Shown here piece by piece: positions 6,047 through 38,620 of a DNA stretch of 64,000 bases. Made by a program: the position numbers and the translations under genes. Under the pieces are notes generated by a model. The model searched no databases. It was not told where the DNA came from and was given only the letters and a program-made list of their open reading frames with translations. Source of the stretch: Micrococcales bacterium 72-143 (lineage in GTDB: Bacteria; Actinomycetota; Actinomycetes; Actinomycetales; Microbacteriaceae); NCBI GenBank assembly GCA_001898835.1, contig MKVM01000001.1, forward strand, positions 392,233 through 456,232, read 5' to 3'. The number at the start of each line of letters is the position of its first letter. Within the stretch, counting starts at the first letter, position 1.

Positions 6047-6124
6047 GAGCCGTACGTTTCGGTTCGGTGAAATCTCTCGCAACCCACTGCCCCGGCATCC
6101 CCGGTGTGCATTAGGTTGGGCAGA

Positions 6125-6144
6125 CGCCCCCGAGTTGGGGGGCG
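6125..6144 (+). promoter_or_regulatory. hairpin in the 5' leader of the cold shock gene
   Basis: CGCCCCC and GGGGGCG arms surround a short GAGTT-containing loop 25 nt upstream of the cold shock ATG. Long structured leaders are common in cold shock mRNAs, but a regulatory role here is inference. Confidence 0.4.
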
Positions 6145-6168
6145 CTTGCACCAGAAGAAAGCAGTCAC

Positions 6169-6372: not shown

Positions 6373-6385
6373 GACGTACTCCACC

Positions 6386-6428
6386 ATGAGGAAGCGCCTC
6401 CGGGATGATCCCGGGGGCGCTTCCTCAT
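6386..6428 (+). terminator. long GC-rich stem-loop between cspA and rnpB
   Basis: A 20-bp stem with one wobble pair and a 3-nt loop. It lacks a T-tract. It lies between the convergent cspA (+) and rnpB (-) genes and abuts the rnpB 3' end, so it may serve both directions. Confidence 0.75.
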
Positions 6429-6430
6429 GC

Positions 6431-6842: not shown

Positions 6843-6879
6843 GACCCTCAGGATACTCGACGGTCCCCGCGCCCGGAGG

Positions 6880-7620: not shown

Positions 7621-7651
7621 ACGGTTTCCGTTCCTGTCGGTGTCGGGGAGG

Positions 7652-8470
7652 TCAGATGAGGGCGAAGTCCCACGGATCGGTGCGCAGCTCGCTCACCGTC
7701 ACGGTCACGCCGGGGAGAGCCTCGCGCAGCGACGCGGCGGCCTCCTCGAGCCACAGCCACTCGGCCGCCCAGTGCGAGACGTCGAGCAGCGCGGGCCCGC
7801 CCGCGACCCGGGCCTCCTCGCGCGCCTCAGAGGCCGGGTGATGACGCAGGTCGCTCGTGATGTACACATCGGCGCCGCGCACCTCCGGATGGCCGAGCAG
7901 CGAGTCCCCCGCGCCGGCGCACAGCGCGACGCGCTGCACCTCGGCGAAGTAGTCGCCCGACCCCCGGATGCCCTGCGCCGTCGCGGGGAGGATCTCCTGC
8001 AGGCCGCGGGCGAGCTCACCGAGGGTCATCGGTTCGGGCAGCTCGCCGACGCGTCCGAGGCCGAGGGCTGCATCCGCCGTCGACGGCACGATCGGACGGA
8101 CGCTCTCCAGCCCGAGCCGCCCGGCGAGCACGGCAGAGGTGCCGTCGGCGACGATGTCCGCGTTGGTGTGCGCCGCGAGCAGCGCGCAGCCACCACGGAT
8201 GAGGCGCGCCAGCACGGCGCCCTTATAGCGGTCCTCGGCGACCGAGGTGACGCCGCGCAGCAGCAGCGGATGGTGCACGAGCAGCAGCTGCGCACCCCGC
8301 TCCACCGCCTCATCCGCCGTCTCGACGACCGCGTCGACGGCGAGATGCACCGACGAGACCTCGGCAGCGGGGTCACCGGCGACGAGACCGGGCGCATCCC
8401 ACGCCTCGGCCCCCGCGAGCGGCCAGAGGGCGTGGGCGACCTCGGTCACGCGTGCGAGGGTGGGTGCCAC
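7652..8470 (-). CDS. Nif3-like dinuclear metal centre protein
   Basis: A 272-residue member of the Nif3/YbgI family, toroidal hexamers with two metals per subunit; some annotations call it GTP cyclohydrolase 1 type 2, but the function is unsettled. Metal-binding motifs LLLVHHPLLLRG (about residues 62-73), AAHTNADI and the C-terminal DVSHWAAEW are visible. A GTG start is used; a TAGACT hexamer (8477-8482) sits 6 nt before it, implying a leaderless transcript. It probably shares an operon with the downstream COG1579 gene. Confidence 0.88.
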   Translation of the reverse strand: MAPTLARVTEVAHALWPLAGAEAWDAPGLVAGDPAAEVSSVHLAVDAVVETADEAVERGAQLLLVHHPLLLRGVTSVAEDRYKGAVLARLIRGGCALLAAHTNADIVADGTSAVLAGRLGLESVRPIVPSTADAALGLGRVGELPEPMTLGELARGLQEILPATAQGIRGSGDYFAEVQRVALCAGAGDSLLGHPEVRGADVYITSDLRHHPASEAREEARVAGGPALLDVSHWAAEWLWLEEAAASLREALPGVTVTVSELRTDPWDFALI

Positions 8471-8474
8471 GACC

Positions 8475-11327
8475 TCAGTCTAGGAGCGGCTGCGCCGCGC
8501 TCCGGGTCGGTGCCGCCTCCAGGCCGTCGCGGTCGCGCTCCTGCCGGCGGATGGCGGGGATGCCCGTCGCGAGCGGGAGCACGAGTCCGAGCACGAGCGC
8601 GACGAGCACCCCGAGGTCGGTCGTCGCGAGCGGGTCGCCCGACTGCACCCCGAGGAGCCCGAAGAGGTAGCCCTGCCATTGGAAGCCCGAGAGCTGCGCC
8701 GAGGTCAACCCGAGCCCGACGACCGAGATGACGACGAGGCCGACGAGGTTCACCCAGCGCACCGCGGGGTAGACACCGCCTCGCTCCAGCAGCGACGGCG
8801 TGTGGAAGCGCCGCAGGCGGATCATCATCTCGCTCGCGAAGATGCCCGTCCACGCGGCCACGGGCACGGCGACCGTCGTCGCGACGTCGCGCACGATGTC
8901 GCGCGTGTCGCTTCCGAGGAGCAGGAAACCGGCACCGACGACGGCGACCAGCACCGCCGCGACGAGCGTCGCGATCGCGCGCGGGGCGCGCAGCCCGCTC
9001 GCGGCGACGGCGAGGCCGCCCGAGTACATCGCCACGATCGTGCCGGCCACCAGCCCGAACGCCGACGCCCCGAAGAGGGGCAGCGCGAGCACGCCGGGGA
9101 CGAGGTCGAGAAGCGCCGCGAGCGGCTCCCGTGCGAGCCTGTCGGCCGTCGACGGGTCGGACGCGGCGAGCACCGCGCCCCACGAGAGGATCGCGAGGGT
9201 CGGCACGATCGCGCCGAAGCTGCTCCACAGCATGTTGGCCGCACCGGAGCCCGCCGGGCTCTGATACCGCGCGAGATCGGAGCTCGACTGCGCCCACGCC
9301 AGGCCCACCACGCTGAAGACCGTGACCGCGCCTCCGATTGCGAGCAGCCAGGAGCCGTCGTCCGTCTGAAGGGCGACCTCGACGTCGACGTGCGACGCCG
9401 TGAACGCGATGATGACGACGACCAGCACCGTCGACAGGATGCCGAGCACGCGCTGCACCCGGTGCAGGAGGCCGTAGCCGAGCACGGCGACGACTCCCGC
9501 GATCACGGCGCCCGCGGCGAGGGCGACGAGTGCGGTGACGCTCGTCGAATCGCCCGGGGCGAGCAGCGACCCGGCGGTGGCGGCGAGCAGCCACAGGAGC
9601 ACCCCGCCCCACAGCACGCGGCCGACCACGGCGAGGAGCGCGGGAACGATGTTGCCCACCACCCCGAAGGTGGCACGCGAGACGACCATGGTCGGCTGGC
9701 CGCTCCATTTGCCCGCGAGGGAGCCGAGGCCGAGCGGGAGCGCCGAGACGGCCACCCCCGCGACGACCGCGACGAGCACCTGCCGAAGGCTCATCCCGAG
9801 CGTGAACAGGGTCGCGCCGACCGCGACCATGATGATCGAGGAGTTGGCGGCGAACCACAGCCAGAACAGGCGGGCCGCGTAGCCCGCGCGCCGTTCGACC
9901 GGTGTCGGCTCGAGCGATTCGGCCTCAACCGCCATGGCCGGCGGGTCGGACGGCGCAAGCGGCTGCGGCGGCTCGCCGACCGCCACGACGGTCGCCGTGG
10001 AGAGCGGGACGGGGGCGACGGATGCGATGCCCGCGTCGTCGACGGGGATCGGCGCCGCGAGGTCAGCGCGGTCCAGCTCGTCGATGCCCTCCACATCCGG
10101 ATCCATCGGCGGGGCCGGGAGGTTCCCGAGCACCGCCGCCTCGACGACGGGAGGCGGGGCGAGCGGCACCGCGCCCACGTCCGGGGGCGGCGCGTCCTGG
10201 AAGCCGGCCGGAGTCACCTCGACGGCGTTCGCGGTGGGCGGCGGGAGGTGCGCGACGTCGACCGGTCCGTTCGGCCCCTCGACGGTCGTGACCGGCGGCG
10301 GGAGCACGGGCGCCGGGAGCTCCGAGACGGGCGGCGGCGTGAGGGCCGTCGTGTCGATCGGCCCGGCCGGCGGCTCGAGCGGAGGCTCGACGAGAGGCGG
10401 CGGCGCGAAGCTCGGCGGGGGTGCGGTGAGCCAGGCCTGGTCGTCGGCGGGAAGATCGTCCACAGGGGCGGGGGTCTCGAGGTTCCAGACCGCGTCCGCG
10501 TCGGCGGGCTCCTCCGCCTGCACGAGGGGCGCCGGGGCGTCGAGCCGGTCGCCCTCGCGGCTCGGATCGGGCGCGTCGGTCCATCCGGGAGGGCCGCTCA
10601 CGGGCGGCACATCGACGGGTGCGGGCTGCGGGTCGGGCGGCGCCGACGCGAAGGCCTCGGGCGCGGCCCCCGTCCATGCCGCGGCACCGAACGCCGCGCC
10701 GACCCCGGCGGGCGGCTCCTCCGCCTCCACGACGGGCGCGAGTCCCTGACGGCGGCGCAGCTCGTTCTCGAGCAGCAGGATCGCGTCGAGCGTGGAACCG
10801 GCCGCCGCCTCCTGCTCGATCGTGCGCGTGAGGTCGTCGTCCGCCGCGGGTCCGGCCGCCGGCGTCAGGGGCCAGGAAGTCGTCGCGGGCGCCTCGCGCA
10901 CCGGTTCCGGGGTCACGGACGCATCCGCCCCGAACTCGGCGGTGTCGGACGCGACGGCATCCGGCGCGATGTACTCCGGGGCCGGAGGCGGCGGCGGGAC
11001 CGGCAGCGGCGGAAGGGCGGGCTCGTGGTCGAGGGGCGCGGCAGACTGCTCCGTCTCGACCGGGGCCGCCTCGACGGGGGGCGGAACGTCGCTCTGCAGC
11101 TCACCGGGGTCCGGTCGGAAGACCGGGTCGGAGTTGAGCACGGGGATCGTGATCGGGCCCGTGTACATCGCCGTCTGAGCGGCGAGCGCGGCGGCGAGCT
11201 CCTCGTCGCTCGCGGCGGGCGACGCGGATCCGTACGGCGGCGGATACTCCGCGGGGGCGGGCGCGTCCTCGGGCATCGCGCCCTCGGCGTCATCCCGCGA
11301 CGGCTCGTCGCCCGGCACCTCGATCAT
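8475..11327 (-). CDS. NCS1-type cytosine permease-like transporter with long N-terminal extension
   Basis: A 950-residue membrane protein. From about residue 480 onward it resembles purine/cytosine permeases: RAGYAARLFWLWFAANSS, SGQPTMVVSRATFG and SSDLARYQ are family-like, with about twelve membrane segments. The first ~475 residues are Pro/Ala/Asp/Glu-rich, without hydrophobic segments and presumably disordered and cytoplasmic. NCS1 permeases are normally about 400-500 residues in total. The ATG (11325-11327) overlaps the EamA stop as ATGA; it also follows a TAGAAT hexamer by 7 nt, so it may have its own leaderless promoter. Substrate unknown. Confidence 0.82.
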   Translation of the reverse strand: MIEVPGDEPSRDDAEGAMPEDAPAPAEYPPPYGSASPAASDEELAAALAAQTAMYTGPITIPVLNSDPVFRPDPGELQSDVPPPVEAAPVETEQSAAPLDHEPALPPLPVPPPPPAPEYIAPDAVASDTAEFGADASVTPEPVREAPATTSWPLTPAAGPAADDDLTRTIEQEAAAGSTLDAILLLENELRRRQGLAPVVEAEEPPAGVGAAFGAAAWTGAAPEAFASAPPDPQPAPVDVPPVSGPPGWTDAPDPSREGDRLDAPAPLVQAEEPADADAVWNLETPAPVDDLPADDQAWLTAPPPSFAPPPLVEPPLEPPAGPIDTTALTPPPVSELPAPVLPPPVTTVEGPNGPVDVAHLPPPTANAVEVTPAGFQDAPPPDVGAVPLAPPPVVEAAVLGNLPAPPMDPDVEGIDELDRADLAAPIPVDDAGIASVAPVPLSTATVVAVGEPPQPLAPSDPPAMAVEAESLEPTPVERRAGYAARLFWLWFAANSSIIMVAVGATLFTLGMSLRQVLVAVVAGVAVSALPLGLGSLAGKWSGQPTMVVSRATFGVVGNIVPALLAVVGRVLWGGVLLWLLAATAGSLLAPGDSTSVTALVALAAGAVIAGVVAVLGYGLLHRVQRVLGILSTVLVVVIIAFTASHVDVEVALQTDDGSWLLAIGGAVTVFSVVGLAWAQSSSDLARYQSPAGSGAANMLWSSFGAIVPTLAILSWGAVLAASDPSTADRLAREPLAALLDLVPGVLALPLFGASAFGLVAGTIVAMYSGGLAVAASGLRAPRAIATLVAAVLVAVVGAGFLLLGSDTRDIVRDVATTVAVPVAAWTGIFASEMMIRLRRFHTPSLLERGGVYPAVRWVNLVGLVVISVVGLGLTSAQLSGFQWQGYLFGLLGVQSGDPLATTDLGVLVALVLGLVLPLATGIPAIRRQERDRDGLEAAPTRSAAQPLLD

Positions 11328-12241
11328 GGCTCGGATTCTAGGGCTGCCGTGCGGCGGGAGCCGGGAGGACGGGCCGTCACGAGCACGATGATCCCGGCGA
11401 GGATCGCGAGCACCCCGAGCCAGGCGAGCGGCTCGAGGCGCTCCCCCACGACCACCACGGCGAGCACGGTCGCGACGACGGGCTCGAGGAGGGCGATGGT
11501 CGTGACCGTCGACGAGCGCAGGGTTCGGAGCGCGACCCCGACCAGGAGGTAGGCCGCGAACATCGGCCCCAGCGCGAGGTAGGCGGCGATCCCGATCGAG
11601 CGCCCCTCGGCGAGCAGCGGAGCACCGGTCGCCAGCAGCACGGGAAGAAGCAGCAGGGCGCCGCATCCGAACATCGCGCCCATCGCGGCACGGGATCCGG
11701 CGCCCGCGCCGATCACGCGGCTCGAGGCGTAGGTGTAGACGCCATATGCGAGGCCGGCCAGCAGACCGAGCAGGACACCGGGCACCACGGCGCCGCCCCC
11801 CTCCCCCGGATGCCGCGCGAGCGCGGCGAGGGTCATGCCGACGATGGCGAGCACGGTCGCGATCGCCCAGCTCCGCGACAGCGGATGACGCTCGACGACC
11901 CACTCGAGCAGCGCCGTCACCACGGGTCCCGTGCCGAGCGCGACCACGTTGCCGATCGCGACCCCCGCGAGATCCATGCCGGAGTAGAACGCGAGCGGGT
12001 AGACGAAGACGCCGACGGCGCCCACGAGCGCCCAGCTCCGCGTCGATCCTCGGCGCAGCACCGCGAGGCTCGCACGCGGCGCGGTCGCGAAGAGCAGCAG
12101 GCCTCCGACGCCCATGGTCGCCGCGCCCGTCGCGAGCGGGCTGACCGCGGCGGGGAGGAGGCTCGCGGCCGTCCCGGTGGTGCCCCAGAGCAGCGAGGCC
12201 ACGACGATCGCGAGCGTCGCCCTCCCTCGCCCGGTCTGCAC
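11324..12241 (-). CDS. EamA-type (DMT superfamily) transporter
   Basis: A 305-residue protein with about ten membrane segments arranged as two EamA repeats: the first begins LAIVVASLLWGTTGTAASLL, the second near GVLLGLLAGLAYGVYTYASS, and each repeat ends in a conserved ALLEWVVERHPLS or ALLEPVVATVLAVVVVGERL segment. Family members export amino acids or metabolites; the substrate here is unknown. It is the first gene of a coupled pair with the permease downstream and is preceded by tRNA-Val on the same strand. Confidence 0.85.
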   Translation of the reverse strand: MQTGRGRATLAIVVASLLWGTTGTAASLLPAAVSPLATGAATMGVGGLLLFATAPRASLAVLRRGSTRSWALVGAVGVFVYPLAFYSGMDLAGVAIGNVVALGTGPVVTALLEWVVERHPLSRSWAIATVLAIVGMTLAALARHPGEGGGAVVPGVLLGLLAGLAYGVYTYASSRVIGAGAGSRAAMGAMFGCGALLLLPVLLATGAPLLAEGRSIGIAAYLALGPMFAAYLLVGVALRTLRSSTVTTIALLEPVVATVLAVVVVGERLEPLAWLGVLAILAGIIVLVTARPPGSRRTAALESEP

Positions 12242-12242
12242 G

Positions 12243-12315
12243 TGGGCGCTGAGGGACTCGAACCCCCGGCATCTTCGGTGTAAACGAAGCGCTCTACCAG
12301 CTGAGCTAAGCGCCC
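12243..12315 (-). tRNA. tRNA-Val (anticodon TAC)
   Basis: The minus strand folds into a full cloverleaf: a 7-bp acceptor stem GGGCGCT/AGCGCCC, a D arm with AGCTCAGCTGGTAGAGC, anticodon stem CTTCG/CGAAG around TTTACAC, and a T arm with GGTTCGAGTCC. The discriminator is A and CCA is not encoded. Confidence 0.97.
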
Positions 12316-12341
12316 GGACCCCCCGATGCTATCGGGCGCGC

Positions 12342-12815
12342 TCAGACCGAGACGGGAAGCACCTCGTCGAGCGCCGCACGGTACTCCTCGAGCGAGCGGG
12401 CCTGGCCCGGCGCGGTGATGAACGACGCGCGGATGATGCCCTTGACGTCGATGACGAAGGTCGCGCGGTTCGCGAAGCCCTTCTCCTCCAGGAAGACGCC
12501 GTACTCCTTGGCGACGGCGCCATGCGGCCAGAAGTCGGCGAGCAGCGTGAAGTCGTAGCCCTCCTGCTCGGCCCAGGCGCGCAGCGCGGCCTTCGAGTCG
12601 ACCGAGATGCCGATGAGCTCCACGCCGTGGCGCTGGAACTCCGCGAGGTTGTCGCGCAGCACGCACAGCTCGCCCGTGCACGTGCTCGAGAAGGCGAGCG
12701 GGAAGAAGACGAGCGCGACGGGCTTCCGCCCGCGGAAGTCGCTGAGCCGCACGTGCTCGCCGTATTGGTTGGGCAGGTCGAAGTCGGGAGCCTGCGTGTC
12801 GTTCTCCAGAGCCAC
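12342..12815 (-). CDS. AhpE-like peroxiredoxin
   Basis: A 157-residue thiol peroxidase that reduces hydroperoxides. The peroxidatic Cys46 lies in [13 protein letters not shown] and a second cysteine, Cys51, five residues later could resolve it. The segment [17 protein letters not shown] is characteristic of the AhpE branch. The GTG start lies 8 nt after a TATGAT hexamer (12824-12829), so the message is probably leaderless. The gene is divergent from aceE. Confidence 0.88.
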
Positions 12816-12937
12816 GAGCGACGATCATACGCCGGAGACCACGGATGTGCCGGTGGCGCGACCGCGATGGAGGAATCCCCCCTCGCCACGGGCCTAGACT
12901 CGAAGACGGCCACGACACGATCAGGAAGAGGTCAAGG

Positions 12938-15661
12938 GTGACGGTGAACGACCAGGATCCGTACTCGGTGAACAACACCGATCAGGACCCGGAGGAGACC
13001 GCCGAATGGCAGGAGTCCCTCGACGCGCTCGTCGCGGAGAAGGGGCATCAGCGCGGCCGCGAGATCATGCTGAGCCTGCTCAAGCGGTCCAAGGACCTGC
13101 ACCTGGGCGTGCCCATGGTGCCCACCACCGACTACATCAACACGATCGCCCCGGAGAACGAACCGGAGTTCCCGGGCGACGAGGAGGTGGAGCGCCAGTA
13201 CCGCCGCTGGATCCGCTGGAACGCGGCCATCACGGTGCACCGGGCGCAGCGTCCCGGCATCGCGGTCGGCGGCCACATCTCGACCTACGCGTCGAGCGCC
13301 TCCCTGTACGAGGTCGGACACAACTGGTTTTTCCGCGGGCAGGACCACCCCTCCGGCGGCGACCAGATCTTCTACCAGGGTCACGCCTCCCCCGGCATGT
13401 ACGCCCGCGCGTTCCTCGAGGGACGCCTCGGCGAGGACGACCTCGACGGGTTCCGCCAGGAGAAGTCCCGCGCGCCCCACGGGCTGAGCTCCTATCCGCA
13501 CCCCCGGCTCATGCCCGAGTTCTGGCAGTTCCCGACGGTGTCGATGGGCCTCGGCCCCATCAACGCCATCTGGCAGGCGCAGAACAACAAGTACCTCACC
13601 AACCGCGGCATCGTCGACCGCTCCGACAGCCGCGTCTGGGCGTTCCTCGGCGACGGCGAGATGGACGAGGTCGAGAGCCGCGGCGCCCTCCAGTGGGCCG
13701 CCAACGAGAAGCTCGACAACCTGACCTTCGTGGTCAACTGCAACCTGCAGCGGCTCGACGGTCCCGTGCGCGGCAACGGCAAGATCATCCAGGAGCTCGA
13801 GAGCTTCTTCCGCGGCGCCGGCTGGAACGTCATCAAGGTCGTCTGGGGCCGTGAGTGGGACGAGCTGCTCGCCCGCGACAACGGCTCGCTCGTGAACCTC
13901 ATGAACGTCACCCCCGACGGCGACTACCAGACCTACAAGACCGAGGACGGCGCCTACGTGCGCGAGAACTTCTTCGGCCGCGACCCCGAGACCCTCAAGC
14001 TCGTCGAGGGGTACAGCGACGAGCAGATCTGGAACCTCAAGCGCGGCGGTCACGACTACCGCAAGGTGTACGCGGCCTTCAAGGCGGCCGTCGAGCACGA
14101 GGGCCAGCCGACCGTCATCCTCGCGAAGACGATCAAGGGCTACGGGCTCGGCAAGAACTTCGAGGGCCGCAACGCGACCCACCAGATGAAGAAGCTCACG
14201 CTCGACAACCTCAAGCAGTTCCGTGACGAGCTCCGCATCCCCATCACGGACGCCCAGCTCGAGGAGAACCCGTACCTGCCCCCGTACTACCACCCGGGCG
14301 AGTCGGATCCCGCGATCCAGTACCTGCAGGAGCGCCGCCGCGAGCTCGGCGGATACCTGCCCGAGCGTCGCACGAAGTACGTCGACCTCGCGCTCCCCGG
14401 CGACAACGCGTACGAGATCGCGAAGAAGGGTTCCGGCAAGCAGGAGGTCGCCACCACCATGGCGTTCGCCCGCCTGCTCAAGGACCTGCTGAAGGACCCG
14501 GGCATCGGGCAGCGCATCGTGCCGATCATCCCGGACGAGGCGCGCACCTTCGGCATGGACGCCTACTTCCCGACGGCGAAGATCTACAACCCGAACGGCC
14601 AGCACTACACCTCGGTCGACCGGGAGCTGCTGCTCGCCTACAAGGAGAGCCCGCAGGGCCAGATCGTGCACGTCGGCATCAACGAGGCGGGCGCCTTCGC
14701 GGCCTTCACCGCGATCGGCACCTCGTATGCGACGCACGGCCAGCCGCTCATCCCGGTGTACGTCTTCTACTCGATGTTCGGCTTCCAGCGCACCGGTGAC
14801 GCGATGTGGGCCGCGGGCGACCAGATGGCGCGCGGCTTCATCATCGGCGCGACCGCGGGACGCACGACGCTCACGGGCGAGGGCCTGCAGCACGCCGACG
14901 GCCACTCGCCGCTGCTCGCCTCCACGAACCCCGCGGTCGTCGCGTACGACCCGGCGTACGGCTACGAGATCGGCCACATCGTGCGCGCCGGCCTCGAGCG
15001 GATGTACGGGGGCCAGCACCCGGATCCGAACGTCATGTACTACCTGACGGTCTACAACGAGCCGATCGTGCAGCCCGCGGAGCCCGAGGGTCTCGACGTC
15101 GAGGGCCTCCTGCGCGGGATCTACAAGCTCAAGGACGCCACCATCCGGGGTCCGAAGGCGCAGATCCTCGCGTCGGGCGTGTCGGTTCCGTGGGCCCTCG
15201 AGGCGCAGGAGCTGCTCGCGAAGGACTGGGGCGTCGCCGCGGACGTGTGGAGCGTCACCTCGTGGAACGAGCTGCGCCGCGACGGCGTCGCCGCCGACGA
15301 GCACAACTTCCTCAACCCGACGAAGCAGCCGCAGGTGCCCTACGTGTGGCAGAAGCTCAGCGGGGCCGAGGGGCCGTTCCTCGCCGTGACCGACTACATG
15401 CACGCCGTGCCGGATCAGATCCGCGCCTGGGTGCCCGGCGAGTACGCGACGCTCGGCGCCGACGACTTCGGCTTCAGCGACACGCGTCCCGCCGCCCGCC
15501 GGTACTTCAAGATCGACGGCCCGTCGGTCGTGGTGCGCATCCTGCAGTCGCTCGCGCGGCGTGGCCAGGTCGACCCGGCCTACGTGCTCCAGGCGATCGA
15601 CAAGTACAAGCTCTACGACGTGACCGCCGGCACGACCGGATCCGCGGGCGGCGAGAGCTAG
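12938..15661 (+). CDS. aceE: pyruvate dehydrogenase E1 component, homodimeric type
   Basis: Thiamine-diphosphate enzyme that decarboxylates pyruvate and acetylates the lipoyl domain of E2. At 907 residues it matches the homodimeric alpha2 class. The thiamine-diphosphate motif begins GDGEMDE at about residue 238 and ends near [23 protein letters not shown] lies in the N-terminal active-site region. The GTG at 12938 is preferred because AGGAAGAGG lies 6 nt upstream; a second GTG at 12944 is possible. No E2 or E3 gene is adjacent; instead the fatty-acid cluster follows, which links acetyl-CoA production to its use. Confidence 0.95.
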
Positions 15662-32178: not shown

Positions 32179-32221
32179 GTAGGGCGGACGGGACTTGAAC
32201 CCGTGACCGACGGATTATGAG
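32179..32221. repeat. left attachment site with displaced tRNA 3' fragment
   Basis: The 43 bp are identical to 38546-38588 and cover the T arm, variable loop and 3' anticodon stem of the tRNA on the minus strand. The D arm and 5' acceptor are missing, so it is not a functional tRNA. The bases beyond the acceptor do not encode CCA here, unlike the right copy. Confidence 0.93.
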
Positions 32222-32301
32222 GGCCTTGCAAGCGCCGAGGAGGTTCGTTTCTGCTGTTTCTTAGGGTGCTCAGGTTCCCTCGAACCTCCCCGGTATCACC
32301 C

Positions 32302-32324
32302 CGGGGGGACGCCGGGGGGCCGCG
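32302..32324. repeat. 23-bp direct repeat near the left end (possible arm-type integrase site)
   Basis: An exact copy, in the same orientation, occurs at 38475-38497 near the right end. In the circular form the two copies would lie about 50-80 bp on either side of the 43-bp core, as arm-type sites of tyrosine integrases do. The right copy falls within the end of the integrase reading frame. Confidence 0.6.
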
Positions 32325-32341
32325 CGCAATATGCTCACGAC

Positions 32342-32806
32342 ATGTATCGCAAGGCGGTGTGGCTCGGTGCCGGCGCGGTTCTGGTCATCGTTGCTGTTCT
32401 GGTGAGCTGGACGCTCGCTGTCCCTGCGTTCGCCGCGCCGCTCGCTACTGCCGCGGACATCATCGCTGCCCTCGGGACCGCAGCGGCAGCGGTCGCCGCG
32501 CTCCTGGCGGCTGAGGCTAGCCGCCAGGCGGCCCAGCGAAGTGAAGAGTCCGTGCTGGCCAGCCGTGCCGCGCTTCGCGACGGTCTCCGCCGGGAGAGAG
32601 AGGCACTCAACGCAGAGCGGCTTCGCCTCCAAGCGGAGGTGAACCAATCGAGCTACTGGTTATCTGTCGCGACGAACTATGGCGACGAGCTGCGTGCAGG
32701 GAACCTCGAAGCCGCAATAGCCCAGATGAACGTCCGTATCGCTGAGATAGCTGTTCGCCTCGGAGAGATTGACCGAGGACTCGCCGAGCCCCCACTCAGC
32801 GAATAA
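32342..32806 (+). CDS. membrane-anchored coiled-coil protein of unknown function
   Basis: A 154-residue protein with two hydrophobic segments (about residues 6-30 and 36-58) followed by a heptad-like helical region rich in Arg, Glu and Ala (QAAQRSEESVLASRAALRDG and onward). A TATGCT hexamer (32330-32335) stands 6 nt before the ATG. It overlaps the convergent gene by 11 bp at its end. No family is recognised; being placed at the element's left end, it is a candidate cargo gene. Confidence 0.7.
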   Translation: MYRKAVWLGAGAVLVIVAVLVSWTLAVPAFAAPLATAADIIAALGTAAAAVAALLAAEASRQAAQRSEESVLASRAALRDGLRREREALNAERLRLQAEVNQSSYWLSVATNYGDELRAGNLEAAIAQMNVRIAEIAVRLGEIDRGLAEPPLSE

Positions 32807-33260
32807 CGGGCACGAAGTAGGCCTTCCTCGTCCCGTCGCTGCCCTTCATCCACGCTTCACTCGTCAAGCCGCGCTGGGTTAACTCGTCCGCGATCGTCCT
32901 ATGCGCCGTCTCCCCCACACCCTGGACCCGGAACACCTCAACCGCGACGTGGGCGTGGTTGTAAAGAGTCACGGTGGTCTGCTTTCTTTCCTCCCGGGTG
33001 GTCACATAGTGAGGGTGCGAGGCAAGAGCGTGCCAAGGTAGCCCGCCTGGCGGCTGGTTCTTGCTGCCGTCGGCCTCCGCGTAGAAGTCGCGGGAACCCG
33101 CGCCATTGCGGGTCCACCAATGGTTCTTCCAGTCCCGTCCGGAAGAAGGCAGGTACGCACGTCCGACGACGTCGTAAGGCTCGCCGTTGCCTTGGTTCGG
33201 GATATCAACCTCTTCCTGAACAGTGCCGTCGGCACCGTGCAGAACTATGCGCTCAGCCAT
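32796..33260 (-). CDS. hypothetical protein of the integrative element
   Basis: A 154-residue soluble protein starting MAERIVLHGADG with several aromatic segments (KNHWWTRNGAGSRDFYAEAD, VTLYNHAHVAVEVFRVQG). No family is recognised. The ATG at 33260 is chosen because the codon pattern deteriorates upstream; there is no clear ribosome site, so the start is uncertain. It is convergent with the membrane protein gene and may form a two-gene cargo module with it. Confidence 0.6.
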   Translation of the reverse strand: MAERIVLHGADGTVQEEVDIPNQGNGEPYDVVGRAYLPSSGRDWKNHWWTRNGAGSRDFYAEADGSKNQPPGGLPWHALASHPHYVTTREERKQTTVTLYNHAHVAVEVFRVQGVGETAHRTIADELTQRGLTSEAWMKGSDGTRKAYFVPVIR

Positions 33261-33414
33261 GAAAGAACGGTAGAGGAGTCCCGCTGGGTCTGCTCGCCCG
33301 TAGCACGCTGAGGGGGGTCCAAATCGCTCAGAATTGACCCGGGGCCACACCGCCGCCACCCGCCCCGGGCGGGCTCGGCATCGTGTCCGTCGGCGCTCGC
33401 GGCGTGCACGACAA

Positions 33415-33442
33415 AGCCCCCGGGCGCAGTGTCCCGGGGGCT
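33415..33442 (-). terminator. rho-independent-type terminator of the serine recombinase gene
   Basis: AGCCCCCGGG (33415-33424) pairs perfectly with CCCGGGGGCT (33433-33442). On the minus strand it begins 10 nt after the recombinase stop and is followed by TTTG. The rest of 33261-33414 shows no convincing gene. Confidence 0.75.
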
Positions 33443-33452
33443 GTGGGGCTCG

Positions 33453-34046
33453 CTACTTCTGTGCGGCGAGGTAGCGGTAGATGGTCGGCTCACTGACGCC
33501 CAGCGTCTTCGCGATGTCGCGCACCTTCTCGCCCTCGTCGGAGAGCCGAATAGCAAGCGCTGCCTTCTTGCTGTCGAGCGCACGGGGGCGACCTCCCACG
33601 CGCCCCTGTGCCTTCGCCTCGGCGAGCCCCGCACGCGTGCGACGTTGAATCATCCGGCGCTCGACCCCAGCGAACACTGCGAGGAGTTGCATCATCACCT
33701 CACCCATGTCCGTGCTGCTGTCGATGCCGTCAGCGATAGAGCGGACGTGGATGCCTCGCTCGCGGAGGCTGGCAATCGTTGTGATGACGTGTCCCGTGTT
33801 CCTTCCGAGCCTGTCGAGTTCGGATACGACCACGACGTCGCCAGGTTCGAGGTCGGCGAGCATGCGGTCAAACTCGGGGCGGGATGTCTTCGCGCCGCTC
33901 TGCGCGTGGTCGACGTAGAGGTAGCGCGTCTTGGTAATGCCGTGCTCGCGGAGGGCGGTCAGCTGACGCGCCTCGTCTTGCTTGTCCGTGCTCACGCGCG
34001 CGTAGCCCACGATGGTGCCGGTCGTGGCCGGGGCGGTCTTGGTCAT
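33453..34046 (-). CDS. serine recombinase (resolvase/invertase family)
   Basis: A 197-residue small serine recombinase. The nucleophile is Ser19 in GYARVSTDKQ; VVVSELDRLGRN and the helix-E region MMQLLAVFAGVERRMIQRRT follow, and the C-terminus is a Hin-like helix-turn-helix (IAKTLGVSEPTIYRYLA). Such enzymes resolve multimers or invert segments. It sits inside an element that already has a tyrosine integrase. A TTGCAT/TAAACT promoter with an 18-bp spacer stands 6 nt before the ATG and overlaps an 18-bp dyad. Confidence 0.92.
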   Translation of the reverse strand: MTKTAPATTGTIVGYARVSTDKQDEARQLTALREHGITKTRYLYVDHAQSGAKTSRPEFDRMLADLEPGDVVVVSELDRLGRNTGHVITTIASLRERGIHVRSIADGIDSSTDMGEVMMQLLAVFAGVERRMIQRRTRAGLAEAKAQGRVGGRPRALDSKKAALAIRLSDEGEKVRDIAKTLGVSEPTIYRYLAAQK

Positions 34047-34050
34047 GCGT

Positions 34051-34082
34051 CGAGTTTATCGAAACTCGTCTGTCCAATGCAA
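34051..34082 (-). promoter_or_regulatory. promoter and overlapping dyad of the serine recombinase gene
   Basis: On the minus strand TTGCAT (34077-34082) and TAAACT (34053-34058) are 18 bp apart. A perfect dyad, CGAGTTT (34051-34057) and AAACTCG (34062-34068), covers the -10 region; another CGAGTTT occurs at 34106-34112. The dyad could be a recombinase site that also allows self-repression. Confidence 0.5.
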
Positions 34083-34189
34083 GCGAATCCAGGAAGTTCC
34101 GTAGTCGAGTTTTGAGAAGTAGAAGTGGTCCGTTTCGAGCCCTGCGAGGGCGCTCTCTCAGTTCTCAGTTATTGATCGTTTTCGAGAGA

Positions 34190-34234
34190 CCGGGGGCGCT
34201 GCCGACCATGACTGAAATATCGCAGCGCCCCCGG
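34190..34234 (-). terminator. 13-bp perfect stem-loop at the end of the small-gene operon
   Basis: CCGGGGGCGCTGC (34190-34202) pairs with 34222-34234 around a 19-nt AT-richer loop, 60 nt beyond the last gene of the operon. No T-tract follows. The rest of the 34047-34293 gap holds the recombinase promoter and further TTTCGAG-like half sites. Confidence 0.6.
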
Positions 34235-34293
34235 AGTAGGGCCGAGAGGGAACGGCCAGCACGCCGGACGCCGCGCGTTCCCCCTCGGAGTCT

Positions 34294-34536
34294 TCATACA
34301 TTCGGCCAGGACAGCCGAAGTTCGAGCTCTTCATCGGCGGTGAGCGCGAGCTCGCCGCGCTCGGTCAGGACCCGCACGACGCCGCCGACGTAGATGAACC
34401 CGAGGTCACCCCGGAGCCGGACTGCCGCGATTGACGGAACCCTGTAGACCGTCGCGCCCACTTGGAGCTTGCGAGCGTCGGGAGCCGGGTCGTCCTCCCA
34501 CGGCACGACGGGGCGGGTGGTGGCTGGTGCGCTCAC
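34294..34536 (-). CDS. small hypothetical protein, last gene of the element operon
   Basis: An 80-residue protein with an SH3-like beta pattern (GATVYRVPSIAAVRLRGDLG, FIYVGGVVRVLTERGEL). No family is recognised. The GTG start overlaps the upstream stop (GTGA). The position at the end of a run of five overlapping genes supports translation. Confidence 0.65.
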   Translation of the reverse strand: MSAPATTRPVVPWEDDPAPDARKLQVGATVYRVPSIAAVRLRGDLGFIYVGGVVRVLTERGELALTADEELELRLSWPNV

Positions 34537-34727
34537 TGCTCGCCCTCGTGCTGGCGGAGGTACGCCTCAACGACGCGCAGAGCATCCGCGCGGGCGTCAT
34601 CACGGTCGTCTTTCGGCATCGGGAGCGCATACGACACCCCTGGCGACGGGGCCCATCGACCACCCGCGGTTCGGCCGGTATCGCCCGGCGACGGAACCCA
34701 CATTCCCCCGGCTGAGTACCTTCCCAT
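34533..34727 (-). CDS. small hypothetical protein of the element operon
   Basis: A 64-residue protein with a Gly/Trp/Ser-rich N-terminal half (WVPSPGDTGR and WAPSPGVSY form an imperfect repeat) and a helical C-terminus (DARADALRVVEAYLRQHEGE). Its ATG overlaps the upstream stop as TAATG and its stop overlaps the next GTG. An internal start giving only the last 28 residues cannot be excluded. Confidence 0.5.
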   Translation of the reverse strand: MGRYSAGGMWVPSPGDTGRTAGGRWAPSPGVSYALPMPKDDRDDARADALRVVEAYLRQHEGEQ

Positions 34728-34900
34728 TAGAGCGCCCCAACCTTGTGAAGCGCCGCCAGCCGCTCAACCTCGGCCCGCTCCGCGGCGCTTCCCGTGGGCA
34801 CGGTCGGGGCGCTCGCCGAGGTGGTGCCGGGACCGTGCAGCTGCACAAGGCGCTCGACTTCCGCGGCGACTTCCTCGGGCGTCATCTCCTGCTTGCTCAC
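34727..34900 (-). CDS. 57-residue hypothetical protein of the element operon
   Basis: A short, mostly helical protein (MSKQEMTPEEVAAEVERLVQ at the start, a Pro/Thr/Ser linker, then AERAEVERLAALHKVGAL). GTG start overlapping the upstream stop (GTGA) and stop overlapping the next ATG (TAATG) make translation by coupling likely. No known family. Confidence 0.6.
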   Translation of the reverse strand: MSKQEMTPEEVAAEVERLVQLHGPGTTSASAPTVPTGSAAERAEVERLAALHKVGAL

Positions 34901-35319
34901 GAGTTTTGACCTTCCGCGTCGAGCGCCGCAAGCTCCGCATCGAGCTGCGCGAGGTAGCCGGTCGCCGCGTCCGCTCGTCGCGCCGCCGTGGAACCCGCGA
35001 TGAGGTCGCGGCGGCGTTCGAGAAGGGCTTCGCGTCGCAACTCGCGGACCCGCGCGGCCACGTCCGGGGTGGCCGGCCCGCGCCGGAACCGCACGCTACC
35101 GAACGCGTCGGTCTGCCCGGCTTCGTCAAGCTCTAGCCAGGTACGGCCTAGTCGGTCCCTGTTGCGATCGAGCAATTCAGGCGTGATTTCGAACTCCTCG
35201 CCAAATTGCAAGTTCAGCGGCTGCGCACCAAACACATTCCCGGAGCCCGAGGGGTCGACCGCGACGAGCCGGATACCCAGCGGGTCTACTACGTGCGCGA
35301 GATTCTTCTTTTCAGACAT
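34897..35319 (-). CDS. hypothetical phage-like protein of the element operon
   Basis: A 140-residue protein: residues 1-75 look like a beta-rich small domain (DPLGIRLVAVDPSGSGNVFG), and the rest is helical and Arg/Ala/Glu-rich (VRELRREALLERRRDLIAGS). It overlaps the preceding helix-turn-helix gene by 8 bp and has an AAGGAAG ribosome site. No family is recognised. Confidence 0.65.
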   Translation of the reverse strand: MSEKKNLAHVVDPLGIRLVAVDPSGSGNVFGAQPLNLQFGEEFEITPELLDRNRDRLGRTWLELDEAGQTDAFGSVRFRRGPATPDVAARVRELRREALLERRRDLIAGSTAARRADAATGYLAQLDAELAALDAEGQNS

Positions 35320-35917
35320 GGGCTTCCTTCTTCTCGGGGTTCGTCGTGTGGCTCGTGCGCGCTTCGCGCTCGCGGACTCGTGCGCCGAGCACCTCGAACT
35401 CGCGCGCGAGCCCGGGCTTGTGCTGGTCGTGCGCGGCCTCCGCCAGCACCTCGGCCATCGCCGGATTCCTGAACACGAGGCCCACCAGGAAGTCGGCAAG
35501 CAACTCATGTTCCGCGAGGGCTGCGGCCACGATGGTGGGGTCATCACTCAGTCCAAGGTCCTTGGCAATGACGACCGCGAGCTGAGCACGCACCCGAGCC
35601 GCGGAGGTCGCGGCGCTGTCAGAGCCCTTCGCGAGCGCATTCGCCCGCTGCTGCCCGAGCGACAGCCAGTCCGCCACGACGCCGCCGACGAAGCCGGAAA
35701 GCGTCGTGGTGCCGTCCGGGAGGTAGGTAGGCGCGAAGGTAGCCCGGGACACGTGGGCGCTCACGTGTCGGTAGAGGCTGGACTGGGAGCCGCCAAGGGT
35801 CGCCCCGTGCTCTCGCAGAATTTCAGCGGGGCGCATGCCAGCGGCCAGCGCCTCGGAGACGAGCAGCGCCTTTGAGTCATCTGCGCAGATGCGACACCGC
35901 GGGTCGAACCTCGCCAT
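35312..35917 (-). CDS. helix-turn-helix protein with CxxC start, phage type
   Basis: A 201-residue protein. The N-terminus has RCRICADDSKALLVSEALAA followed by a helix-turn-helix-like stretch ending SSLYRHVSAHV, a pattern common in actinophage DNA-binding proteins and reminiscent of small terminase subunits; the latter is only a suggestion. The remaining ~140 residues are helical. A strong AGGAGG lies 6 nt before the ATG. It heads the overlapping five-gene run. Confidence 0.65.
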   Translation of the reverse strand: MARFDPRCRICADDSKALLVSEALAAGMRPAEILREHGATLGGSQSSLYRHVSAHVSRATFAPTYLPDGTTTLSGFVGGVVADWLSLGQQRANALAKGSDSAATSAARVRAQLAVVIAKDLGLSDDPTIVAAALAEHELLADFLVGLVFRNPAMAEVLAEAAHDQHKPGLAREFEVLGARVREREARTSHTTNPEKKEAHV

Positions 35918-35977
35918 AAAGGACCTCCTGAGTAGGGAGAGCGGGCGGCGAGCTTTTGACGGCCATCCCGGACGGGC

Positions 35978-36274
35978 CTAAGTAACGCCCAGGAGCCCAC
36001 GCCACCCGCTCTCAGTGCTAACCATCGACCGCTCCGGGAAACCGAGGCCGTTTCCCGCTGGGAATTCGCCTAGCTTTCCCGGATGGCGCGCATGCCGGAC
36101 GCGAACTATGCGGAGAAACCCGATTCCCGAGGAGCCATGCGATTCGGGGCGATTTAGGCTCGCGGCTGCTTCGCCCAGTGCGTCGGCGATGAGTTGGCCG
36201 AGGAGTTCGTATCCTTCTGAGGCGCCGTTTTGGATGAGCCAGAGCGCTACGTCGAACTGCTCACGCTGCGTCAC
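35978..36274 (-). CDS. hypothetical protein, possibly decayed at the C-terminus
   Basis: A 98-residue frame. A strong AGGAGGG lies 9 nt before the GTG, and the first ~45 residues (QREQFDVALWLIQNGASEGY, LIADALGEAAASLNR) look like a genuine helical protein. The second half has codon use unlike its neighbours (ATA, CTA, GTT) and no clear pattern, so the gene may be shifted or truncated. It overlaps the upstream gene by 14 bp. Confidence 0.5.
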   Translation of the reverse strand: MTQREQFDVALWLIQNGASEGYELLGQLIADALGEAAASLNRPESHGSSGIGFLRIVRVRHARHPGKLGEFPAGNGLGFPERSMVSTESGWRGLLGVT

Positions 36275-36833
36275 GACGCGCTTCCCTCCTGAGCCTGGCG
36301 ATGGTGGACCGGCTGACGTTCAGCGCTTCGGCCTGGGCCTTGATAGAGCCCGGTGGGAGGTCTGCCGGCGTGAGCCGAGGCAGTCGCCGGGAGCTGCGAC
36401 CGCCCTGTACCGCGGCGTCGTGCCGTCGCTGAGCCGTGTGCGGGTCCCAGAGCTCGATCGCGGCCTCAGACGCCCTCCTCGTCGCCCGGAGGAGCCAGCG
36501 TTCGGAGAGCACCCCGTCGAGGACGTGACGGGGCTGCGTGCGCCCGGGGGTGAACCTTAGCCCCGCCCGCTCAGCCCCGATGCGGACCACGCGGCGCAGG
36601 TCGCCCACGACGACCTCCACCATCTCGTACTCTCCCAGCGGGTCGTGCTCGGCGTTCAGTCGGCGCAGTGCCGCGGACACCATGAGCGCGTACAAGTGAT
36701 GCTCGTACTCGTCAGCCCGTCGCTGCGGGAGGACGGGTCGGTACCACATGGTTCTGGTTCTCGGGTTCCAGCGACGTTCGGGCAGCGACGAATACCAGGC
36801 ATCCGGCGTCGGGATGCGGAGACGAGCGAACAT
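36261..36833 (-). CDS. helix-turn-helix protein of the integrative element
   Basis: A 190-residue basic protein ending in a resolvase/Hin-like helix-turn-helix (IKAQAEALNVSRSTIARLRR). The N-terminal part contains a Trp/Tyr-rich segment (WNPRTRTMWYRPVLPQRRAD). The ATG at 36833 is preferred over an upstream TTG because GGAGG lies 9 nt before it. As the first gene leaving the central control region it is the best candidate for the element's regulator, by inference. Confidence 0.65.
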   Translation of the reverse strand: MFARLRIPTPDAWYSSLPERRWNPRTRTMWYRPVLPQRRADEYEHHLYALMVSAALRRLNAEHDPLGEYEMVEVVVGDLRRVVRIGAERAGLRFTPGRTQPRHVLDGVLSERWLLRATRRASEAAIELWDPHTAQRRHDAAVQGGRSSRRLPRLTPADLPPGSIKAQAEALNVSRSTIARLRREARRDAA

Positions 36834-37026
36834 GAGGGACAACCTCCGGGCAGAAGGGGCAGAGACTCCCGTCTCGTCGTTCCCGGGTCCGGTTGCTGGA
36901 CTATCGCGTCACGAAGATTCTAGCGAGCAGAACTTGATTTCGAGGTGGAGTTTGCTCATCGAGCATCATGCAGACGCATCCCTCCCCCCGGGAGGGATTA
37001 GCTAAATGACACTAGGTGGAAATGCG

Positions 37027-37063
37027 ATGACCCCCGAAACCTCTGCCCAAGGTCGGGGGTCAT
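37027..37063. terminator. 11-bp stem-loop in the central intergenic region of the element
   Basis: ATGACCCCCGA (37027-37037) pairs perfectly with 37053-37063. It lies between the divergent helix-turn-helix and excisionase genes. The 36834-37235 interval holds no convincing gene; it is AT-richer than its surroundings and contains this hairpin plus the palindromes and promoter listed next. Confidence 0.5.
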
Positions 37064-37110
37064 CATCTGTTCACGAGGAACTGGAAGAGAGCACTCGACG
37101 CCAGCATAAC

Positions 37111-37189
37111 AGTTGACACGACAACTAAGTGGTGAGTTTTGCGAGTACACAATTGTGTAGTTGTGCTCAATTTCGTGAATTGGTAGAAT
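37111..37189 (+). promoter_or_regulatory. operator-like palindromes and promoter of the excisionase-integrase genes
   Basis: TTGTGC (37161-37166) and TAGAAT (37184-37189) are separated by exactly 17 bp and read toward the excisionase gene. A perfect 14-bp palindrome TACACAATTGTGTA (37146-37159) abuts the -35 box, and an inverted repeat AGTTG/CAACT lies at 37111-37126. A repressor bound here would block integrase expression. Confidence 0.6.
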
Positions 37190-37235
37190 TGCCGTGGTTA
37201 CCAGCACCGGACCAACCATCCGGAAGAAGTAGAAA

Positions 37236-37427
37236 TTGACTACTGATGCTGAGCCCCTTCTGACCTCGCGCGAGGTCGCTGCCCTCCTGCGTGTCTCAGC
37301 TGCCACCCTGTCCCGCTGGCGCGATCGAGGCGACGGGCCCGCGTGGCTAGAGCTCGCGCCCGGGATACCGAGATACGAAGCTGACGTCATCGCCCGGTGG
37401 CGGGAAGATAGGCGCCGTGAGCGTTGA
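37236..37427 (+). CDS. excisionase-like helix-turn-helix protein
   Basis: A 63-residue protein of the MerR/Xis-like winged-helix class: LLTSREVAALLRVSAATLSR WRDRGDGPAW (given in two parts) with an aromatic wing. Such proteins next to an integrase usually direct excision. The TTG start follows GGAAGAAG by about 6 nt. The end overlaps the integrase start by 11 bp, so the two are coupled. Confidence 0.82.
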   Translation: MTTDAEPLLTSREVAALLRVSAATLSRWRDRGDGPAWLELAPGIPRYEADVIARWREDRRRER

Positions 37428-38538
37428 GAGAACTTCTTCCGGGCGATGGCGAGCGCGCGTCAAGGATGGTCGTCGTAACGTCGCGTCACGCACGTTCGAC
37501 CGGAAGATGGATGCCGAGGCGTGGGAGCACTCCCAGCGTCGCGCACTGAACCTTGGTGAATGGGTGGACCCGCGCGCCGGTCGGGAGCCTCTACGGGACG
37601 CTCTCGCGCGATGGATGGACGGTAGGGCGGGGCTCGTCGCCTCATCGACTCTCAAAGCCGACCGCGGGCGTCTCGCCTACCTCTCCCCGCGGCTCGGCAA
37701 CCTGCCGGTGAGCGCAGTACGTACCAGCGACGTTCAAGGGCTTCTTGACGACCTCACCCGACGTGGGCTGAGCCAAGCATCCGTCGCACGCGTCCGTGCC
37801 CTCCTCTCGTCGTTCTACTCCTGGGCGAAACGCGAGGGTATGACCTCCACCAACCCCGTGTCGGACACCAAAGCACGAGCCGGGGATGCGACCAAGCCGC
37901 GAGCCGAGGTCTACCCTTTCTCCATCGAGGAGTTGCGCGAGGTCGTCGCCGAGTTGCAGCAGCGCTCCCCCGAACAAGCAGAACTCGCGCTCGTGCTCGG
38001 ACTAACCGGGCTCCGGTGGGGAGAACTCGCGGCGCTCCGTGTGCGGGACGTGGCGACGGTTCCGCATCCCTCCCTGCACGTCACACGGAGCGCTCCTGAC
38101 GGCCACGAAGTGCGAACCCGTACCAAGGGCGGGCGGGGTCGCACGGTTCCCCTTGTGGCCGAACTCGTGCCCCTCATCGCCGAGCGCGCCGCGGGGCGTG
38201 ACCCCGATGCGCCGCTGTTCACCACCCCCGAGGGAAACCGCCTCAACAACTCGAACTGGCGTCGGCTGGTCGGCTGGTCCCGCTCATGCCGGGGTCGTCG
38301 GGTTCACGACCTTCGGCACACCGCCGCGACCCTCTGGCTATCCAACGGCATCGACGTGAAGACGGTCCAAACGTGGCTCGGTCACGAGTCCGCGCAGTTG
38401 ACCCTGAACCTTTACAGCCATTGGATGGGCTCCCACGCCGACGCCGCCGCACTCGCCCGCCTGAATGCGCTCCTCGGGGGGACGCCGGGGGGCCGCGACG
38501 AGAAACCTGGGAGCGGCGCTCGCGGAAGTTCCCTGTAA
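37417..38538 (+). CDS. tyrosine-type site-specific integrase
   Basis: A 373-residue phage-type integrase. The N-terminus has an arm-binding-like SSGRWRARVKDGRRNVASR segment, a SAM-like core-binding domain covers about residues 70-160, and the catalytic domain has Arg200 (GLTGLRWGEL), His297 and Arg300 (HDLRH), His323 (LGHES) and Tyr333 (LNLYSHW). The gene ends 7 nt before the right attachment repeat, in the orientation usual for tRNA-targeting elements. Confidence 0.95.
   Translation: MSVERTSSGRWRARVKDGRRNVASRTFDRKMDAEAWEHSQRRALNLGEWVDPRAGREPLRDALARWMDGRAGLVASSTLKADRGRLAYLSPRLGNLPVSAVRTSDVQGLLDDLTRRGLSQASVARVRALLSSFYSWAKREGMTSTNPVSDTKARAGDATKPRAEVYPFSIEELREVVAELQQRSPEQAELALVLGLTGLRWGELAALRVRDVATVPHPSLHVTRSAPDGHEVRTRTKGGRGRTVPLVAELVPLIAERAAGRDPDAPLFTTPEGNRLNNSNWRRLVGWSRSCRGRRVHDLRHTAATLWLSNGIDVKTVQTWLGHESAQLTLNLYSHWMGSHADAAALARLNALLGGTPGGRDEKPGSGARGSSL
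38475..38497. repeat. 23-bp direct repeat near the right end (possible arm-type integrase site)
   Basis: Identical to 32302-32324. It lies inside the last codons of the integrase gene (encoding GGTPGGR) and 49 bp from the 43-bp core. Confidence 0.6.
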
Positions 38539-38543
38539 TTCAT

Positions 38544-38620
38544 TGGTAGGGCGGACGGGACTTGAACCCGTGACCGACGGATTATGAGTCCGCTGCTCTA
38601 ACCGGCTGAGCTACCGCCCC
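38544..38620 (-). tRNA. tRNA with anticodon CAT (elongator Met or Ile2), integration target
   Basis: A full cloverleaf on the minus strand: acceptor GGGGCGG/CCGCCCT with one wobble, D arm AGCTCAGCCGGTTAGAGC, anticodon stem GCGGA/TCCGT around CTCATAA, and T arm with GGTTCAAGTCC. It lacks the initiator features. Whether it is elongator Met or lysidine-modified Ile2 cannot be decided from these bases. CCA is encoded (38544-38546), supplied by the inserted element. The tRNA proper is 38547-38620. Confidence 0.93.
38546..38588. repeat. right attachment site within the intact tRNA gene
   Basis: The 43-bp core matches 32179-32221. It supplies the 3' half of the tRNA, so integration regenerated a complete gene. 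Confidence 0.93.

Follow-up and report, generated by a model that had tools for sequence, protein, structure and literature searches.

What kind of mobile element is a chromosomal insertion of ~6.4 kb that carries two unrelated site-specific recombinases and no recognised gene for replication, transfer or virions? The question is raised by positions 32179–38588 of a 64,000-nucleotide stretch of contig MKVM01000001.1 from Micrococcales bacterium 72-143 (the whole stretch analysed here, called the window), where such an element is inserted at the 3' end of a tRNA-Met gene in an actinobacterial chromosome. An initial annotation had left two readings side by side, a minimal phage satellite and a cut-down integrative plasmid. 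We lean towards the first: a minimal-sized integrative satellite that depends on a helper phage and belongs to a family without a replication module, whose members are probably carried along in the particles of phages passing through. The satellite reading has gained a protein, p201, which is homologous to the gene before the large terminase gene (TerL) in four phage genomes and in one further locus of the same bacterial family, whereas the plasmid reading has gained little, with no match to Rep, relaxase or primase among the window proteins scanned or, by Pfam, among 50 proteins of five relatives.

A family of p201–p140 loci and its cargo

Two neighbouring minus-strand genes form the conserved core of the element: p201 (35312–35917), which encodes a 201-amino-acid (aa) protein, putatively like small terminases (TerS-like), with a CxxC motif, a helix-turn-helix (HTH) and further helices, and p140 (34897–35319), which overlaps it. 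Within the host's family, 19 of 398 genomes gave a match to a p140 profile built from four sequences. A p201 profile built from 20 sequences had matches in 20 of 299 genomes; in 15 of them E was below 1e-13, and the matches in the other five were weak (E 1.5e-4 to 8.1e-4; G018, G029, G039, G161 and G203, which lie outside the locus set below). An order-level p140 profile matched seven of 297 genomes, two of them from other families. The first p201 matches in G274 (contig 10), G232 and G281 were dropped as conjugation-type or housekeeping loci.

We compared 32 loci with p201 or p140, 30 from the host's own family; fewer than 32 are independent, because L061, L063 and L064 share flanks within one assembly and L021 and L022 are two contig ends of one genome. 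The former three are copies of one element on two contigs of G135, either assembly redundancy or a large duplication. Across the 32 loci, p201 is present in 30, p140 in 29 and both in 27. Where the p140 start nearest the p201 end could be compared, the two overlap by 4 or 8 nucleotides (nt) in 19 of 26 loci and lie within 50 nt in the other seven. Accompanying genes are more variable, with 'nuc' in 21 loci (not in the window element), p191 in 14 and p80 in eight. A tyrosine integrase occurs in 23 loci, a large serine recombinase in eight and either in 29; a small serine recombinase recurs in 18, and only L022, a contig end, has no recombinase at all. As a background, a search of 60 family genomes with the small recombinase of the window gave 77 hits, whatever their length, or about one per 2–3 Mb, and therefore the chance of meeting one in an 18-kb stretch is roughly 1%. 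Profile searches, as proposed in the initial annotation, thus place the element in a family with a conserved core and a recurring small serine recombinase, which that annotation had not noticed.

Eight p201–p140 elements, the one in the window included, are bounded by exact 38–53-bp repeats and span 4.57–12.67 kb; in the remaining loci no such end repeat was found, or the contig ends too early. Seven of the eight lie at tRNA genes: the window element (6.37 kb) at tRNA-Met, L054 (10.34 kb) at tRNA-Lys, L055 (6.58 kb) at tRNA-Gly, L056 (8.94 kb), L067 (12.67 kb) and L157 (10.17 kb) at tRNA-Arg, and L119 at tRNA-Gly; for L028 (8.42 kb) ARAGORN found no tRNA. L119 (G592, 8030–12639), from another bacterial family, is the smallest at 4.57 kb, and its called genes are int, p191, p201, p140, nuc and p80, with a gap of ~1 kb between p191 and p201 that holds no called gene.

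Ten proteins of the window element were scanned with each of Pfam (without int), PHROGs and PADLOC (both without xis), the 98-aa open reading frame at 35978–36274 being outside all three scans; from five delimited relatives, a further 50 called proteins were included, with few of the p201 and p140 proteins and only part of the nuc proteins among them. In line with the initial annotation, Pfam and PHROGs gave no convincing virion, replication or transfer match among the window proteins scanned, and no relaxase, Rep, primase or FtsK-type match; nor was a TerL, portal or capsid gene recognised in the window element. The 19 families matched by the 50 relatives' proteins in Pfam (1e-4) comprise integrase, resolvase, HTH and cargo families, with no virion, terminase, primase, Rep or relaxase family, and PHROGs placed none of these proteins in a head, tail or terminase family among the 25 of 36 matched families inspected.

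The genes beside the small serine recombinase appear by sequence to be exchangeable cargo, with predicted anti-phage defence in several relatives. At this place lie an AriA-like ATPase in L027 (2.5e-35), a type IIG restriction enzyme in L058 (4.2e-165) and a PifA-like protein in L067 (5.2e-26). Single proteins of the five delimited relatives match PDC-S32 (1.2e-86), PD-T7-4 (2e-34) and others, and L069, a locus without p201, encodes an HsdR-like protein. In the window element the cargo slot is occupied by p154R (32796–33260, minus strand) and p154L (32342–32806, plus strand), the latter with an N-terminal hydrophobic stretch. The initial annotation had regarded the small proteins outside the recombination genes as unplaceable; this overlooked the conserved core of p201 and p140, and holds for p154R and p154L, neither of which matches anything in PADLOC. 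Additionally, p154R has no Pfam match and a single weak relative (E=6.4e-4, 30%) in 299 genomes, and p154L matches only weakly a tape-measure PHROG (3.1e-4 over 60 of 1582 positions) and holin-type families (E 0.13 and 0.58).

Some further observations concern the accessory genes. The L027 ATPase and an adjacent 307-aa gene unmatched in PADLOC and Pfam (4349–6468) resemble a PARIS-like pair with an unrecognised partner. L026, reached via p191 only and having neither p201 nor p140, was excluded from the 32, though a type IIG restriction-modification gene adjoins its resolvase. 'nuc', the third gene after p140 (L028 6318–6719 and 19 other loci), has a GDILG-like motif and possibly a degenerate nuclease fold; assignment to the PD-(D/E)XK fold, which it had seemed to resemble, was given up, as Pfam matched none of seven members and the alignment conserved no catalytic set, and the protein was left unnamed.

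Taken together, this looks like a family of very small mobile elements, apparently undescribed: among titles and the beginnings of abstracts, mostly of open rather than subscription papers, no paper describing a p201–p140 family was found.

Relation of p201 to phage packaging genes

With window p201 as sole query, nothing was found in phages or plasmids (tblastn) or in viral contigs, and window p191 as sole query likewise found nothing in viral contigs. Of three other p201 members searched in phages, two matched, in Meiothermus phages, the gene adjoining that of the large terminase, and the third matched none. The p201 profile matched gp33 of Thermus phage Riverbug (80.8 bits over positions 5–161 of 183), a gene of Meiothermus phages MMP7 and MMP17 (74.6 bits), gene 42 of vir515 (62.5 bits) and gp04 of Methanoculleus virus L4768 (~50 bits). 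In Riverbug, MMP7/MMP17 and vir515 the homologous gene shares 8 to 17 bp with the beginning of TerL; L4768 has two genes between gp04 and TerL.

A related arrangement occurs in the host's own bacterial family. In L156 (G217), the end of a p201 homologue (68.7 bits) overlaps a 249-aa part of TerL, which is 44% identical over 222 aa to Riverbug TerL and matches solved large terminases in the PDB (8.2e-7). The terminase frame is interrupted, the second part (224 aa) having marginal matches only, and a 280-aa capsid-like protein (E=0.0026) is encoded downstream. Integrase, p201-type gene, TerL and capsid-like gene are enclosed by 43-bp tRNA-Pro repeats 8.81 kb apart (4696–13549), and this locus may be a capsid-forming satellite or a very small prophage. 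When its p201-type protein serves as query, the matches to the Meiothermus, Thermus and Methanoculleus genes cover 88% of it or more. A tree of 31 sequences, with weak support on many deep branches, joins the five phage-type sequences to a single element sequence (L120, on a long branch) at support 95/92. Thus p201 shares ancestry with a protein at the usual position of the small terminase, and we read p201 as a putative small terminase.

Several results weigh against this reading and against a satellite lifestyle. The structural model of p201 (mean predicted local distance difference test score (pLDDT) 85, predicted template-modelling score (pTM) 0.48) gave nothing by Foldseek at E<0.05 in the PDB (best 1.1) or BFVD (best 0.082), and PDB profile searches with p201 and p140 gave no credible match. 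PHROGs assigns the MMP7 homologue to a DNA-binding family (3.7e-5) and to one named for a late transcriptional activator (1.2e-4) rather than to TerS, and L4768 gp04 to HTH proteins; the PHROG 'terminase small subunit' is matched by one of 20 p201 members, weakly (4.3e-4), and the annotators of Riverbug name a different gene TerS. p140 is without a phage relative, 0 of 19 members matching PHROGs at 0.01, and its model (pLDDT 79) found nothing significant by Foldseek in the PDB. The core is also incomplete in places, with three p201 loci lacking a recognised p140 and two p140 loci lacking p201. Pattern scans confirmed no relative of the element in viral contigs, and a pattern scan of genome contigs with integrase returned 62 stretches, none confirmed. 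The host genome yielded no TerL (in a search whose control was positive in 11 of 14 genomes, and in a second search without a positive control); there is therefore no resident helper, and a helper would have to come from outside. Finally, no primase or Rep was recognised, unlike in the two kinds of phage-inducible island compared below.

Part of this evidence suits a different explanation, in which the element is a defence island whose sole means of movement are its integrase and generalized transduction, and p201 and p140 are phage-derived regulators, for instance a late activator, and not packaging proteins. The HTH of p201, the lack of a TerS match by fold, the grouping of its phage homologues with DNA-binding and late-activator families, and the defence cargo of several relatives are all on its side. 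We nevertheless regard it as unlikely, since p201 and p140 stay paired across three bacterial families in which integrase type and cargo vary, and the homologous gene overlaps the TerL start, the usual place of TerS, in three phage types.

Recombinases, insertion site and neighbouring genes

The small serine recombinase (33453–34046, minus strand; 197 aa) is of the resolvase/invertase type, with a Resolvase catalytic domain (2.3e-45) and HTH_7 (7.2e-14), and stands alone, unrelated to the integrase, as initially annotated. No TnpA transposase was found beside it with Pfam or PHROGs, the PHROG 'transposase' matches being the serine recombinase itself. The initial annotation had also given it a promoter of its own; a scan for sigma-70-like sites, with other promoter types outside its scope, returned none, and a res-like site lies there instead (34047–34200, minus strand). 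L028 carries a 77% identical recombinase at the same place, and in the region upstream a 23-bp block is identical between the two while much of the remainder has diverged. Over 18 upstream regions of small recombinases, one of them from the non-member L026, the motif AAACGAT occurs in 10 and AAAACTCG in six (shuffle means 0.40 and 0.12, maxima 3 and 2), both motifs having been chosen after seeing the sequences. Their spacing is 68–69 nt in the window element, L028, L065 and L067, 58 in L071 and 79 in L157. There is one occurrence of the 23-bp block in the window element, and a single res-like site before a resolvase gene fits multimer resolution rather than inversion. By analogy with the Tn3/gamma-delta resolvase family, the recombinase would resolve multimers.

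Plasmids often carry related recombinases (at least 5000 records, none reaching 60% identity), and a resolvase accompanied by a res-like site of its own is itself reminiscent of plasmids. Both points favour an integrative plasmid or mobilizable element that has been reduced and rides along with conjugation by way of an oriT not yet recognised, its circle being kept monomeric by the resolvase. This is more doubtful still than the regulator explanation: the window proteins scanned and, by Pfam at 1e-4, the 50 proteins of the five relatives gave no relaxase, Rep or FtsK-type match (oriT was not searched for), searches of 72,556 plasmid records with one member each of p201 and p140 came back empty, and the p201 homologues beside TerL are left unexplained.

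The limits of the element are as initially proposed. The left attachment (att) copy (32179–32221) repeats 43 bp of the tRNA-Met 3' end exactly (43/43), and the right copy (38546–38588) is the 3' part of the intact tRNA-Met(CAT) gene called by ARAGORN (38544–38620, minus strand), which stays intact after insertion. Inside these cores lies a 26-bp direct repeat (96% identity, plus strand), 77 bp from the left core (32299–32324) and 48 bp from the right (38472–38497, inside the int 3' end), with counterparts of 18 bp in L119 and 22 bp in L157; these inner repeats are candidate arm sites of the integrase. G+C is 66% in the element vs 72% in each flank.

The tyrosine integrase (37417–38538, plus strand; 373 aa; phrog_1, 1.9e-69) is coupled to an excisionase/AlpA-type HTH_17 gene, xis (37236–37427, plus strand; 63 aa; PF12728, 2.4e-8), the two overlapping by 11 bp, again as initially annotated. 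On the opposite strand follow p191 (36261–36836), divergent from xis–int and encoding a protein with a C-terminal HTH by alignment that is probably a regulator, then p201, p140, p57 (34727–34900), p64 (34533–34727), p80 (34294–34536) and the serine recombinase, with the two cargo-slot genes leftmost. p57 occupies the place of 'nuc' and matched only itself among 25 loci; p64 is a small protein with no relatives in the locus set, and p80 is a small recurrent one.

The joined flanks were searched in nine genomes of the genus, including the window's own, and the eight others were compared. One of the eight, G361, has a clean empty site of the kind the initial annotation had suggested looking for, where 40 bp separate the left flank from an intact tRNA-Met. 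In G180 and G228 nothing large is inserted; some of the left flank is found ~0.3 and ~0.9 kb away from the tRNA, and the neighbouring glutaredoxin-like gene is missing. The flanks are split over two contigs in G335, only the tRNA and right flank are seen in G269, and other genes sit between flank and tRNA in G305 and G127, the latter with a 43-bp att copy 2.9 kb from the tRNA. In G058, a 45-bp att copy (96%) lies ~39 kb from the same tRNA and a 35-bp copy (91%) 5.1 kb further; the 45-bp copy abuts a relic of the window integrase 3' end (82% DNA identity over 348 bp) whose reading frame is closed by a stop. To judge from these copies, the tRNA-Met site is a hotspot visited by this integrase type in another species. 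That the window element is itself a decayed prophage remnant is very improbable: p201 is related to a phage gene and real relics exist at this site in G058, but the core genes recur in the same order, bounded by exact att repeats, at several different tRNA genes, and the 4.57-kb version in L119 has only an integrase and core genes.

Other insertions were seen at the same tRNA-Met. In G058 (L105–L107) insertions are stacked, and the 5.1-kb part encodes a 441-aa ATPase-like and a 380-aa protein; G127 (L104 1330–4332) has a 2.9-kb insertion with an integrase piece and a 398-aa gene, and G305 (L103 1386–4249) a small insertion with a 537-aa gene. Also, a DUF4145 protein (L028 3356–4228) and proteins that look by eye like zinc fingers (L022 907–1830, L109 3616–4353) recur beside p201–p140 elements or the tRNA-Met site.

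A possible life cycle and comparison with known satellites

If the element is a phage satellite, its genes suggest the following cycle. Int and Xis would integrate it into, and excise it from, the tRNA-Met 3' end, where the site, an empty site and a relic are observed, with p191 and the HTH_17 protein possibly setting on/off control. Phage infection would trigger excision, after which host or helper enzymes would multiply the circle, no replication gene having been recognised. p201, as a small terminase homologous to the phage genes described above, would recruit the helper's large terminase to satellite DNA for packaging in helper particles, and p140, probably co-translated with p201, may modify or direct this step. 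The serine resolvase, acting at its single res-like site, would cut multimers to monomers.

We therefore put the family forward as a candidate new satellite family. A fuller picture is quite possible, though more tentative: a new actinobacterial family whose kit is a phage-type small terminase and a novel partner, p140, without a replication gene, relying on exogenous helpers, swapping anti-phage cargo beside resolvase and res, and reducible to integrase and core in 4.6 kb, with p154R and p154L an undescribed defence unit.

Satellites of the phage-inducible chromosomal island (PICI) type, including the Staphylococcus aureus pathogenicity islands (SaPI), have Int and Xis at one end, their own small terminase that redirects the helper's large terminase, and cargo useful to the host; they also have a pri-rep replication module, and a resolvase is not known to be part of their plan. 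The window element is like them in having Int and Xis at one end, a candidate small terminase and cargo, and unlike them in that no pri-rep module was recognised in it or in the five delimited relatives, and in that a resolvase is often present in the family. Equivalence of p191 and xis to the Stl/Str or AlpA regulators of PICI is only putative. L156 resembles a capsid-forming PICI, and has the p201-type gene before TerL in common with these; the window element differs from them in having no recognised TerL, portal or capsid gene.

The closest comparison in the literature is with the phage-inducible chromosomal minimalist islands (PICMI) of Vibrionaceae, for which we draw on part of the published account (PMC10803314). 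These too are small integrative elements with int and an HTH_17/AlpA-type gene and without capsid genes, PF12728 (HTH_17) being one of the two profiles of the PICMI AlpA model, and an open reading frame overlaps int by 4 nt in PICMI, compared with 11 nt (xis) in the window element. Defence systems including PARIS occupy the cargo place of PICMI, as defence cargo does in several p201–p140 relatives, and virulent helpers, which arrive from outside the cell, have been reported for PICMI (PMC10803314). PICMI differ in having a primase and a fis site, where the window element has no primase found and a tRNA-Met site; the TerS-like gene, p140 and the frequent resolvase with a res-like site belong to the p201–p140 family and not to PICMI as presented in that part of the account (PMC10803314). 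Because no replication module was recognised, we do not file the family under PICI or PICMI, though it would work likewise.

Among Actinobacteria, the Mulch and Flayer satellites of Streptomyces phages also come from Actinomycetota, but in the portion of their description used here they encode encapsidation machinery, which the window element does not (PMC10690885). A 2023 survey of actinobacterial prophages supposed many elements below 15 kb to be possible satellites, and the part of it consulted does not describe the p201–p140 family (PMC10023795). According to the section of a review used here, novel hitch-hiking elements are still being found, a few of them in Actinobacteria, and some probably move by unknown mechanisms (PMC11389934).

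The p201–p140 marker pair makes a class of small islands searchable, as the p140 matches in 19 of 398 family genomes illustrate. L119 offers a 4.6-kb minimal version for experiments, and the cargo genes are candidates for defence functions. For the biology of these bacteria, the relationship of p201 ties defence-carrying tRNA islands to a phage packaging-type gene.

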